From Actinomycetota bacterium (GTDB lineage: Bacteria > Actinomycetota > Actinomycetes > Nanopelagicales > Nanopelagicaceae), in NCBI GenBank assembly GCA_009698675.1, contig WLPT01000002.1:62001-126000 (forward strand): 64,000 nucleotides of DNA. Reading direction: 5' to 3'. This document shows positions 34,850 to 40,631 of the stretch, piece by piece. Numbering within the stretch: the first letter of the stretch is position 1; every line of letters begins with the position of its first letter. The notes under the pieces are model-generated. The model searched no databases and was not told the DNA's origin. It saw nothing but the letters and a program-made list of their open reading frames with translations. The translations under genes and the position numbers were made by a program.

Positions 34850-36028
34850 CTATCTCCCATCTCTACTTAAGAAACGATTCCACGAACGTGTTTCAGAAGT
34901 CAAAGAAATCTTTTGACCCCCCACCATCGCCATTTCGTATATTGAAAAAATCTGCTCTGCAACTACATCCCAATCAAATATCTGTGCATGCTCCTTGCCG
35001 ATTTTGGCCAACTCTTCGCGCTTGGAGTTATCGCGTAGCAAATCAATGACAACTTTAGCCAGATCTGTTGAATCTTCGGATTTAAACAGGGCACCGAATT
35101 GACCGCCGGCCAAAAGGGAGTCAAATGCTGGAATATCACTAGCTACAACACAGGCACCACCCGCTAAGGCTTCGGCCAAAATAATTCCAAAGGACTCGCC
35201 TCCAGTATTTGGCGCGACATAGAGTGCAACCGATGACATGAAATCTGCCTTTTCCTCTTCGCTAATGCGGCCTAAAAACTCAAATCGGTGTCGCAGTTGT
35301 GAATCTATCGACTTCACTACGTCTTTATGATCTCCTGGTCCGGCTACAAATACCTTCACATCTGGTGCAAAGCGCGCGATTATCGGCAATGCATCGAGCA
35401 GAACTTGCAGCCCTTTGCGCGGCTCTTCAAACCTACCAATGAAGCCAATTGTATTTCCTGACCATTTTTCTTGACGTCGACCGTTGGCGTAGCGCTTTGC
35501 GTAAATACCATTCGGTATAACAACTGCATCTGTATCTAAATGTGAAGTCAAAGTTAGGCGGGCCGCCTCTGATACCGCGATACGTGCCGAGAGTTTCTCG
35601 ATAGCAGGCTCCAAAATGGGACCGATCGCATAGATGACTTTCTGGTGTTTTGCCGCCGCATGAAAAGTGCCCACCATCGGCCCCTCCGCCGCCCAACATG
35701 CAAGAAGTGAAATCGAAGGAATAGCAGGTTCGTGCAGATGCAAAATATCGAACTCTCCGGCCGAGATCCATTGACGCACCCTGGCGAAGGCGATGGGACC
35801 AAAGAGCACACGGGCCACGGCACCGTTATATGGAATTGCAATCGGTTTACCAGCACTAACAACGTAAGGTGGAAGTTTGCTTTCATCTGTCACTGGCGCT
35901 AGAACTGAAACACTATGGCCGTTGGCAATGAGATATTCGGCCAAATCTCGAACGTGGTTCTGGACTCCACCGGGTGTATCCCAGCCATACGGGCAGACAA
36001 TGCCAATCTTTAGTTTCGCAGTCAGCAT
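34850..36028 (-). CDS. pimA: GT4 glycosyltransferase, phosphatidylinositol mannosyltransferase-like
   Basis: KIGIVCPYGWDTPGGVQNHVRDLAEYL; GRFEEPRKGLQVLLDALP; synteny with pgsA and acyltransferase. Confidence 0.88.
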   Translation of the reverse strand: MLTAKLKIGIVCPYGWDTPGGVQNHVRDLAEYLIANGHSVSVLAPVTDESKLPPYVVSAGKPIAIPYNGAVARVLFGPIAFARVRQWISAGEFDILHLHEPAIPSISLLACWAAEGPMVGTFHAAAKHQKVIYAIGPILEPAIEKLSARIAVSEAARLTLTSHLDTDAVVIPNGIYAKRYANGRRQEKWSGNTIGFIGRFEEPRKGLQVLLDALPIIARFAPDVKVFVAGPGDHKDVVKSIDSQLRHRFEFLGRISEEEKADFMSSVALYVAPNTGGESFGIILAEALAGGACVVASDIPAFDSLLAGGQFGALFKSEDSTDLAKVVIDLLRDNSKREELAKIGKEHAQIFDWDVVAEQIFSIYEMAMVGGQKISLTSETRSWNRFLSRDGR

Positions 36029-36909
36029 TAACTACGCTCCTTAAAATCCCCGTCGATCCAAATCCGTTGCATCATGTGCCAATCCTGCGGGTGTGCGGCT
36101 ATCCCCTTAGCAAAGAGGTCTGCACTCGATTGAACAATCGTTGAGATTTTTTCACTTTCACTACCTTGCCTTGGCATTGGCACCATCTCGAAATCTATAT
36201 GAATGCCAGATTCGGTATAGGAAATCATCGCATAAATCAGTGGCGCGCCAGTTTTTAGAGCCAACACAGCTGGGCCTGCTGGCATTCTCGCCGGCCCCCC
36301 GAAAAAAGTAACATCGATACCTGAGCGCGATAGGTCTCGATCTGCGGCAAGAGCGACTACGCAACCTGATCGAAGGCGCTGAGCTAACGTTGGGATTACA
36401 CGAGCATCTAAGGCAAGGGCCTCCATTCCGAAAGCGGCGCGATAGGACATAAACTTTTTAAATAGCGCTTCAGGTTTTAAATGCTCGGCGACCGTTACAA
36501 GTTTTGCGCCTCTGGCGCAGAAAAACGCTGCTGCATGATCGTAGTTTCCGACGTGGGCCAACGTAACAATGGCACCTTTTCCAGCGACGATGGCATCTAG
36601 GAGCAGATGTTCATCGGTTGTGGTCACTGTATTTTGAATTCTCTGTGCAGACCAATCTGGTAATCTAAAGGTGTCGCACCAATAGCGAATGGCAGAGCGC
36701 ATCGCTTTGTAAACCAATAAATCTAAATCGAGCGCAGTGATTGCAGGCTGTGTTCGCGCCAGATTTGATCGTAAGCGTTGTACGCTCGGACCGTTTCGCT
36801 TCGTGATGTAGTCAGATATCTTGTATGCACTTTCGTAGGCAAATCCTTCAGGTAACCACCGCAACACCCGCCATGCAGCAAAGTAACCCCAAGCAGTCAA
36901 GGTCTGCAC
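36028..36909 (-). CDS. Phosphatidylinositol mannoside acyltransferase (LpxL/HtrB-like)
   Basis: LAHVGNYDHAAAFFCARG (HX4D); FFGGPARMPAGPAVLAL. Confidence 0.85.
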   Translation of the reverse strand: MQTLTAWGYFAAWRVLRWLPEGFAYESAYKISDYITKRNGPSVQRLRSNLARTQPAITALDLDLLVYKAMRSAIRYWCDTFRLPDWSAQRIQNTVTTTDEHLLLDAIVAGKGAIVTLAHVGNYDHAAAFFCARGAKLVTVAEHLKPEALFKKFMSYRAAFGMEALALDARVIPTLAQRLRSGCVVALAADRDLSRSGIDVTFFGGPARMPAGPAVLALKTGAPLIYAMISYTESGIHIDFEMVPMPRQGSESEKISTIVQSSADLFAKGIAAHPQDWHMMQRIWIDGDFKERS

Positions 36910-36912
36910 AAT

Positions 36913-37509
36913 TTAAACCATAGCTTTCTTGATAATAATCAACCGTTGAACGACTGTTATAAAAGCAAGGAGTGCAAGCAACCAGATGCCAATACTCAGA
37001 ACGTAAGGCACTCCAAGTCCATCAAGTGCAATAGCACAGAGGGAAATAATTAACCTCTCTGTTCGCTCTGCAATCCCGCCGGAGCATGGGATTGAAAAGC
37101 TTTCAGCTTTTGCGCGAATATATGGGACCAGCATTCCAGTTACTAATGCAATAAGAACAACGATCGCCAACTTGTCATCATGACGGATAAGAAAAAGTGC
37201 TAAACCAATCAAAATCGCTGAATCGGTAATACGATCGATCGTGGAATCTAGAAAACCACCCCAACGACTTGCGCCAACTTTAGATATACGCGCCATCGCT
37301 CCATCAAAGAGATCGCTCAAAGCAAATAGAGCGATGATCGCCGTGCCGCGCAAGAAATCACCTCGTGGGTAAAAAAAGAGCGATGAGAGGAGAACACCAA
37401 TGGCGCCCACCCAGGTCACAGCATTTGCGGTGATTCCAATACGCAGAGCAAATGAGGCTACGGGCGTTATAAATCTCGTAACCGCAGGTTTGAAAATGCC
37501 ACTAATCAT
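36913..37509 (-). CDS. CDP-alcohol phosphatidyltransferase, phosphatidylinositol(-phosphate) synthase-like (start MISGIFK at 37509; ORF extends to 37578)
   Basis: CDP-OH-P motif DLFDGAMARISKVGASRWGGFLDSTIDR; SD GGGAGG before ATG 37509. Confidence 0.87.
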   Translation of the reverse strand: MISGIFKPAVTRFITPVASFALRIGITANAVTWVGAIGVLLSSLFFYPRGDFLRGTAIIALFALSDLFDGAMARISKVGASRWGGFLDSTIDRITDSAILIGLALFLIRHDDKLAIVVLIALVTGMLVPYIRAKAESFSIPCSGGIAERTERLIISLCAIALDGLGVPYVLSIGIWLLALLAFITVVQRLIIIKKAMV

Positions 37510-37533
37510 CACCTCCCATCGTAGGCTGAGCAG

Positions 37534-38118
37534 GTGAATTCCACTGCATCTGAGCCTGCCATCGCCGTCTATGGCCATGAGGGAGCATCGCCTTCAATCG
37601 TGGCCGAGGTCTTTGGCGGGCGGGTATTACAGGTCCTTGACCCAGAATCGGATTGTGCAATCTTTGTAATTAATCCATCCATGGGAATCGATCAGGCAAC
37701 GATCGATTTGTGGCAGGCGCTAGATGATTTACAAACACCTCGATTGGTTGTCGTCACCCATCTTGAAAATCAGGATGCAGATTTTGACGATGCCATCATG
37801 TTAGCCAATCGCGTCTTTGATCACATGGCTACTCCATATTTAGTGCTACACGATGATCAAGGTTTGCCCTGCGCACTTATTAGTCTTGCGACGATGCGAA
37901 TCATTGACTACAACACAGCCCCTCCTAGGGATATGGCCTGCGAGCCTGAACATGAAACTTTGGTGCAAGAGTTTCGCGACGAGTACCTAGAGCTTTCTAG
38001 CTCTCTTGGCGACGGGGCATTTGCTGCCGGTCTACTTTTTCCCGCGATACCTTTGTGGATTGAAAAAGGTATTGGTGTAGATGTAGTGAAAACTTATTTA
38101 GCCGAACTTGGGGTTTAA
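37534..38118 (+). CDS. EF-G-like degenerate GTPase domain protein
   Basis: DCAIFVINPSMGIDQATIDLWQALDDLQTPRLVVVTHLENQDADFDDAIMLANRVF parallels the EF-G G-domain with altered G1/G4 motifs. Confidence 0.6.
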   Translation: MNSTASEPAIAVYGHEGASPSIVAEVFGGRVLQVLDPESDCAIFVINPSMGIDQATIDLWQALDDLQTPRLVVVTHLENQDADFDDAIMLANRVFDHMATPYLVLHDDQGLPCALISLATMRIIDYNTAPPRDMACEPEHETLVQEFRDEYLELSSSLGDGAFAAGLLFPAIPLWIEKGIGVDVVKTYLAELGV

Positions 38119-38640
38119 TTACCAGTTTGCGACGATCTCGTCTCGAGTCACCATCAAAAGTTGTGGCAAGACTTTAGTCTGACCAATTATCGGCATGAAA
38201 TTTGCATCACCACTCCAACGTGGAACAACGTGCTGATGAATATGCTCGGCTACGCCCGCACCTGAAATAGCTCCTTGATTCATTCCCAAATTAAATCCAT
38301 CGGGAGAAGAGGCTTTACGAATCGCTGACATTGCATGCGAGCTCAGTGCTGAGATCTCATCGCGCTCTTGTGCACTCAAATCAGTTAAGTCGGCCACATG
38401 ACGATATGCGCACACTAATAGGTGCCCCGGGTTGTATGGATAAAGATTCATTACAACAAAGGCCGTTATACCCCTATGAACAATTAACCCTTCATCATCC
38501 TTTAACGTCGGGATACGGCAGAAGGGGCACTCGATCTCGTTGGTTTCAAGAGGGCGATTCTCGCCTCGAAGATAGTCAAGTCGATGTGGCGCCCACAAAC
38601 GAGCCCAACTATCAGGCATACCCAAACCGTCGACAGTCAT
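38119..38640 (-). CDS. HIT-family hydrolase/phosphorylase (Ap4A-type)
   Basis: IECPFCRIPT zinc-type motif and HIHQHVVPRW histidine triad. Confidence 0.92.
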   Translation of the reverse strand: MTVDGLGMPDSWARLWAPHRLDYLRGENRPLETNEIECPFCRIPTLKDDEGLIVHRGITAFVVMNLYPYNPGHLLVCAYRHVADLTDLSAQERDEISALSSHAMSAIRKASSPDGFNLGMNQGAISGAGVAEHIHQHVVPRWSGDANFMPIIGQTKVLPQLLMVTRDEIVANW

Positions 38641-38642
38641 CG

Positions 38643-40631
38643 CTAAACCTGAGTACGTTCGAGGACTATTTTCTTAATCTCGGCAATCGCATCAGCTATT
38701 GGAATTCCATTTTTCTGTTCGCCATTTCGATAGCGAAATGAAACGGCGCCCGCGGCTTGATCCTCCTCACCGGCAATGACCATAAATGGAATCTTCTGCA
38801 GCTGCGCATTGCGCACCTTCTTTTGCATCCGATCATCAGAGCTATCGAGTTCGGTGCGAATACCGGCCTTTCGCATCTGGGACATTACATCGGCTAAGTA
38901 ATCAGAAAATGCCTCGGCAACTGGAATTCCAATCGCCTGTACAGGCGCAAGCCATGGTGGAAAAGCGCCAGCATAATGTTCGGTTAAGACGCCGAAGAAG
39001 CGCTCAATTGAACCAAAGAGTGCGCGATGGATCATAACTGGACGCTGACGAGATCCATCGGGTGCGGCATATTCGAGTTCAAAGCGTTGAGGAAGTTGAA
39101 AATCTACTTGAATCGTAGACATCTGCCATGTACGTCCAATGGCATCTTTAGCCTGTACGGAAATCTTTGGACCATAGAAGGCCGCCCCACCCTCATCTAA
39201 GACTAATTCGAGATTTTGAGCTGTTGCAGCCTGTCGCAGAGCTTGAGTTGCCTCAAGCCAATCGCTATCTTCGCCAACAGATTTCTCGGGGTTACGCGTA
39301 GAGAGTTCGAGATAGAAATCGTTGAGGCCGTAATCGCGCAGCAAGTTAAGTACGAATGTCAGCAGCGAGTCGAGTTCAGCGACCATCTGCTCCTTGGTGC
39401 AGTAAATATGTGCATCATCCTGAGTAAATCCGCGCGCACGAGTAATGCCATGCAAAACTCCAGATTTTTCATAACGATAAACCGTACCGAATTCGAAAAG
39501 ACGCAATGGAAGTTCACGATAGGAGCGACCACGTGAACGGTAAATTAGATTATGAAATGGGCAGTTCATTGGCTTCATGTAGTACTGCTGGCCCGCGCGT
39601 TTAATCGTCCCATCGGCGTGAAGCTCTTCATCTAAAATCATTGGCGGGTACATGCCATCGGCATACCACTGCAAGTGTCCAGAGGTTTCAAAGAGTGCGG
39701 CCTTGGTCAAATGGGGTGAGTAGACAAACTCGTACCCCTCGTCCTCATGGCGCTTACGCGAGTAATCCTCCATCGCACGTCGAACGATTCCGCCCTTGGG
39801 ATGGAAAACGGCAAGTCCAGATCCAATCTCTTCAGGAAATGAGAAGAGATCAAGCTCTGTTCCAAGACGTCGATGGTCGCGCTTTTCAGCTTCGGCTAAG
39901 AGTTCAAGATATGCATTGAGTTCATCTTGCGAGGGCCAAGCGGTGCCATAAATTCGCTGCAGCATTGGATTCTTTTCAGAGCCACGCCAGTATGCCGCCG
40001 CAGTCCTCATCAATTTGAACGCTGGAATATGTTTGGTCGAAGGAAGGTGTGGACCACGGCAAAGGTCGCTCCACACCGGATTACCATCACGTCCTAAATT
40101 GTCATAGATCGTTAGCTCGGAGCCACCGACTTCAACGCTTGCCTCTTCACCTGCTGGCCCCTTAATTCCAATGAGCTCACATTTATAGGGCTCATGTGCC
40201 AACTCTTTGAGCGCATCTGCCTCAGTGATTACACGCCGACGAAAACGTTGCCCCTCTTTTACAATTTTACGCATTGCACTTTCAATCTTTACAAGATCAT
40301 CGGGATTGAAAGTTTGTGTTGGATCAAAGTCGTAATAAAAACCATCTTTGATTGGCGGCCCAATCCCAAGACGCGTATTTGCGAAAACCTCTTGCACGGC
40401 TTGTGCCATTACATGTGCCGTCGAGTGGCGCAATACGGAAACTCCATCGGGTGAAGAGATCAAAACCCCTTCGACAATATCTCCTGGTGCTAACTCACTC
40501 CACAGGTCTTTGAGCACACCGTTGACCCGCGCCACGACAACATCCTTGTTCTCGGCAAAGAGATTGGTAGGACGCGCATCTGCCTCAACCGAGCGCAGCT
40601 GGCCATCCACCGTAATCTCAATCGTTGACAT
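38643..40631 (-). CDS. thrS: Threonyl-tRNA synthetase
   Basis: 662 aa; TGS domain; [44 protein letters not shown]. Confidence 0.98.

Follow-up and report, generated by a model that had tools for sequence, protein, structure and literature searches.

The window analysed here, a stretch of 64,000 nucleotides, carries at positions 37534..38118 of the forward strand a gene for a 194-aa protein that is an orthologue of the actinobacterial EF-G2, reduced in place and held under purifying selection across its family. Its descent is from EF-G2, yet it lies outside the translational GTPases as these are defined as a family: their characteristic motifs and domain II were looked for and are missing. What is left is a G core that probably serves as a GTP-independent binding module, for which the translation machinery would be the likeliest class of partner. 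EF-G2 is widespread, and a naturally minimised version, predicted to lack GTP use, points to the part of the molecule that does the retained work. No description of a reduced EF-G2 protein and no paper on the EF-G2 structure 9k0z was found in the open-licence PMC texts.

Locus, sequence and fold

The neighbours of the gene are all read from the reverse strand. On one side lie a PimA-like GT4 glycosyltransferase gene (34850..36028; matches to GT4 families only, all below cut-off, but syntenic in relatives), a PI-mannoside acyltransferase gene (36028..36909; NF005919, E=3.5e-96) and the divergent pgsA for phosphatidylinositol phosphate synthase (36913..37578; NF045883, E=8.9e-63; a conserved neighbour in relatives). 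On the other side are the convergent gene of a HIT-family ATP adenylyltransferase (38119..38640; NF052622, E=5.2e-62, below its cut-off) and thrS for threonyl-tRNA synthetase (38643..40631; TIGR00418, E=8.1e-189), both syntenic. In 14 genomes of other actinobacterial families the place between pgsA and HIT-thrS is taken by full-length EF-G2. The same holds for one genome of g38, a deep genus in the family to which the window belongs, and there the motifs of EF-G2 are intact (GHSGSGKT, DTPG and TKLD). The order pimA-patA-pgsA<EF-G2>HIT-thrS is thus common to carriers of the reduced and of the full-length form; the exceptions to the full order are a local inversion of the pgsA side (L089) and a locus where thrS was not found (L098), and two further loci are cut by a contig end, before HIT (L085) or before patA (L088). 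Standing at the ancestral locus of EF-G2 itself, the 194-aa gene is a reduced orthologue rather than a stray fragment.

The protein matches the NCBIfam EF-G2 model NF009377 with E=5.8e-19; the EF-G model that ranks second reaches 1.7e-8. The whole-protein score for NF009377, 68 bits, lies below the curated cut-off of 890 bits. Among PDB sequences the best match is to M. smegmatis EF-G2 (9k0z, E=2.3e-12), and a profile that we built from full-length actinobacterial EF-G2s reaches it with E=8e-24. Pfam GTP_EFTU gives only a weak match (E=0.006); a weak Pfam Polbeta match (E=0.11) was taken as chance. The AlphaFold2 prediction, for which 17 reduced proteins were the only input, has a pLDDT of 91.7 and a pTM of 0.89, and the top Foldseek matches of the predicted fold are EF-G, EF-G2 and RF3, all with probability 1.00; against EF-G and EF-G2 the E-values go down to 5e-11 and the TM scores normalised to the query are 0.64-0.80. 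The fold is a G domain from which the beta2-beta3 edge and the switch II helix are missing, together with the G' strands and helix. The resemblance to the EF-G G domain, originally proposed by eye, is therefore well beyond chance by model, structure, profile and fold matches alike, and the predicted structure is that of a translational GTPase G domain and not an unrelated one. The claim that the protein is a fragment of the EF-G kind stands in a refined form: its parent is EF-G2 (fusA2), and it also retains the G' strands and the closing part of the G domain. Among named organisms, the nearest relative to emerge is Candidatus Planktophila, one of the freshwater actinobacteria.

With actinobacterial EF-G2 (fusA2; NF009377; EFG II subfamily, PMC3150367) the reduced protein shares the locus, the best sequence match, the G-core fold and conserved residues, whereas it is 194 aa long against about 720 aa and lacks the P-loop, switch I and II, DxPG, NKxD, the acidic G' tip and domains II-V. 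With EF-G (fusA), the canonical translocase, it shares the G-domain core fold (TM to query up to 0.80) but none of the catalytic or translocation parts, and its relatives carry a separate full EF-G.

Loss of the nucleotide-binding parts

The reading frame begins with a GTG that is the same codon as the start in close homologues. Strand beta1 is kept, and alignment with full-length EF-G2 places GHEGASPS (residues 14-21, 37573..37596) where the ancestor has GHSGSGKT, so that the lysine and threonine of the P-loop are lost. Residues 28-40 (37615..37653) form a short linker in place of the deleted switch I, beta2-beta3, DxPG and switch II; no other stretch of the protein varies as much, the entropy here being 2.79. 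The block beta4-alpha3-beta5-alpha4 is retained, and in it THLE (residues 75-78, 37756..37767) is what is left of the G4 motif, NKxD in EF-G and TKLD in full-length EF-G2, as judged from the alignment and a tetrapeptide survey. The motif placements of the original prediction, ASPS for the P-loop and THLE for NKxD, were thus correct. The most conserved core (residues 83-112, 37780..37869; DFDDA...R.FD..TPYLVLHDD.GLP) covers alpha4 and the first G' strands and is followed by the G' helix (residues 138-158 in the AlphaFold2 prediction, 37945..38007). The acidic G' tip is deleted. The end of the G domain, with beta6, the G5 region and alpha5 (residues 163-193, 38020..38112), aligns to full-length EF-G2 and contains a predicted strand at 170-173 and a predicted helix at 182-193. 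There the protein stops: by alignment and by structure prediction domains II-V, including the beta-barrel domain II, are absent, as had been supposed.

The loss of the motifs extends to all 94 distinct reduced proteins inspected, in none of which is a P-loop GxxxxGK[ST] intact. With the P-loop, both switches, DxPG, NKxD and domains II-V gone, the protein is expected neither to bind GTP nor to hydrolyse it in the usual way, and tRNA translocation should be impossible for it. An unusual mode of GTP binding, or action in trans together with separately encoded EF-G2 domains, would offer a way around these losses, and some reduced members do keep GKS or GRS fragments near beta1. We regard this as very unlikely: the complete absence of intact P-loops is accompanied by the loss of switch I, DxPG and NKxD, and conservation in the beta1-alpha1 region is comparatively low. 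Action in trans meets a further obstacle, because 12 genomes with the reduced form have exactly one domain-IV gene, with a frame of about 700 aa like that of EF-G itself, while genus g38 has two; the missing domain IV is therefore not a separate gene elsewhere in these 12 genomes, and a split gene with trans-complementing domains was rejected for them on this ground. The window's own assembly (78% complete) contains no EF-G domain IV, which we read as an assembly gap.

Retention of the gene and parallel shortening of EF-G2

A match to the gene was found in 181 of the 201 genomes of the window's family and in 95 of the 98 good assemblies, counts that include genus g38, whose match is the full-length gene; it is present in 17 of 17 closed (single-contig) genomes and in all 17 genera sampled. 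The carrier genomes are small, about 1-2 Mb. The reading frame is intact in nearly all genomes, across genera, and pairwise dN/dS of the reduced gene is 0.03-0.12, mostly 0.04-0.08, close to that of pgsA in the same genomes. These values together with the retention rule out a pseudogene, and with the fold and the motif loss in all 94 proteins they bear out the view of a stand-alone, nucleotide-binding-defective fragment that remains under coding constraint. Near-universal retention in freshwater actinobacteria suggests that the leftover part is useful without GTP.

One may still ask whether the gene is a slowly decaying functionless relic kept by chance. EF-G2 is dispensable in other lineages, as none was found in ten genomes tested from them, and some of the reduced forms in family f34 are highly diverged. 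Against this, dN/dS is low, the frame is intact across genera, the fold is predicted with high confidence and small genomes have kept the gene; the reading is barely credible for the window's family. Complete loss of EF-G2 is possible in the small-genome actinobacteria of family f5, where four genomes of 1.2-1.7 Mb (G040, G277, G294 and G310) have EF-G only and no EF-G2 match, unlike the window's family.

A class-wide search with follow-up yielded further short EF-G2s, whose lengths are counted from stop to stop. In family f34 they measure 352-359 aa (genus g67), 232 and 249 aa (g97), 262 and 423 aa (g103) and 391 aa (g87); in family f39 the form of genus g94 has 344 aa, and within the window's family genus g31 has forms of 354-363 aa. 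Synteny is kept at all of these loci. The short proteins match the EF-G2 profile only from about position 80-118 on, a point already past the P-loop part. Nearly all of them extend to about 285-290, where the G domain ends; the exceptions are one g97 form (G392), which stops at 276, and that of f39, at 231. The parallel forms thus keep profile positions of about 110-290 and drop the nucleotide-binding N-terminal part; part of domain II is kept in one g103 form (G457) and in g87 according to the profile, and in g67 by eye. In the f34 and f39 loci (L160-L165, L174-L176) the P-loop is degenerate throughout, the nearest to an intact one being GSAGSGRSS in L164.

The g31 proteins (L079:8366-9427, L080 and L081) are intermediates of about 350 aa with the full G' and a tail that is perhaps a worn domain V. 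A domain V remnant fits by eye in register and is placed on domain V by hhalign, but with E=0.15 it is suggestive only; between 2 and 61 of 500 shuffles matched as well, and there was no Pfam domain V match.

A tree of thrS, the PimA-like gene, pgsA and HIT requires eight changes between the full and the reduced state, six of them forced by well-supported branches. Because regain of lost domains is unlikely, this pattern suggests that EF-G2 was reduced repeatedly at one locus, with gene replacement by recombination as a possible alternative. The tree of the G core itself (182 columns) does not settle the number of reductions; the reduced forms group together in it, perhaps by long-branch attraction. 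Intermediates at one locus allow the order of loss to be followed. The reduced forms of f34 evolve much faster than their neighbour genes (30-56% identity where pgsA has 65-81%), so some of them may be decaying, while the protein of the window's clade is stable. One full-length EF-G2 with intact motifs evolves very fast as well: that at L168:6135-8420 scores 755 bits where other full-length members of its family exceed 1050 bits, and it is sister to a genome with a truncated form.

A proposed binding role without GTP and its possible partners

Across 24 proteins conservation is lowest N-terminally, where the former P-loop region and the linker lie, and peaks at residues 96-108 (mean entropy 0.98). 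D83, L103, L105 and G110 are invariant, and nearly fixed positions comprise D83-F84, T100-P101, L103-V-L-H106, G110, Y126, E146-F147, E150, F163, G166, P173 and G181. In our proposal, the G core of the reduced protein would be a binding module that comes from EF-G2 and needs no GTP. It may dock on a partner also used by the full-length protein through the conserved alpha4/G' face (D83-F-D-D86, TPYLVLH-D-G, E139, E146-F147 and E150), and would work there as an adaptor or a competitor, not as a motor.

The partner would most readily be sought in the translation machinery, on the GTPase-centre side of the ribosome or in a ribosome-bound factor, since observations place full-length EF-G2 on the 70S ribosome, 9k0z being entitled as an EF-G2-bound 70S complex. 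A ribosome-side role is plausible, and a translation-side partner is a first guess with somewhat less than even prospects; modulation of the ribosome or of EF-G, as first suggested, is speculative. EFG II proteins generally diverge in the GTPase domain (PMC3150367), and M. smegmatis EF-G2 was reported to be without GTPase activity, its role in mycobacteria being ambiguous (PMC9067457); GTP use may therefore already have been dispensable before the reduction.

The ribosomal part of the proposal is nevertheless its weak one. The P-loop and switch regions of EF-G face the sarcin-ricin loop, and in the window's clade these regions, domains II-V and the bL12-contacting acidic G' tip are gone. In M. 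tuberculosis EF-G1 the acidic G' residues that touch L7/L12 are E221, E225 and E228 (PMC8446442). The equivalents of these glutamates are not specifically conserved in the window's clade, so docking on bL12 through the classic acidic residues is unsupported there; the same helix bears the conserved E146 and E150.

The main rival to a translation-side partner is a non-ribosomal one: the core would have acquired a new function off the ribosome and would bind a different protein, one that may be connected with the adjacent lipid or tRNA-synthetase genes; the acidic alpha4/G' face would be its new interface. The loss of the G' tip and of the ribosome-touching switch regions speaks for it, as do the very stable position of the locus, the many fixed acidic positions and the residues E146, F147 and E150, conserved in the reduced clade only. 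Most of the conserved core residues, however, recur in full-length EF-G2 (D83-F84, L103, L118, Y126 and G181), so that the face is largely ancestral, and the gene order is older than the reduction and thus does not argue for a tie to the neighbour genes. We consider a function away from the ribosome rather unlikely.

A wider form of the binding-module reading, which we offer as a conjecture with somewhat less than even prospects, is that what counts in EF-G2 is the G/G' core beyond switch II, and that several aquatic actinobacterial lineages have independently trimmed the protein to a GTP-independent module. If this is true, the long-unclear function of EF-G2 would be a binding role without GTP, and EF-G2 would not primarily be a translocase. 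The 194-aa protein is a reagent for finding the EF-G2 partner.

A likeness in kind is offered by yeast Ski7, an altered homologue of a translational GTPase, related to Hbs1, that is a cofactor and not an elongation factor (PMC4509514). Its origin is unrelated, it serves the eukaryotic exosome and it keeps further domains; the reduced EF-G2 goes further than Ski7, which still binds GTP, and is a bacterial addition to the few translational GTPases that have turned into pseudo-GTPases.

In genus g36 (L144 and L145) the interval from the reduced EF-G2 gene to thrS shows no match to a HIT gene. The clean promoter attributed to the 194-aa frame could not be recovered: a promoter scan of 37300-38250 found no sigma-70-like site, and the GTG lies inside the listed pgsA frame, which overlaps the start of the gene (37512-37578). 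A more likely internal start of pgsA leaves only about 20 bp to the divergent GTG, and the promoters must therefore overlap coding sequence or the transcripts be leaderless.
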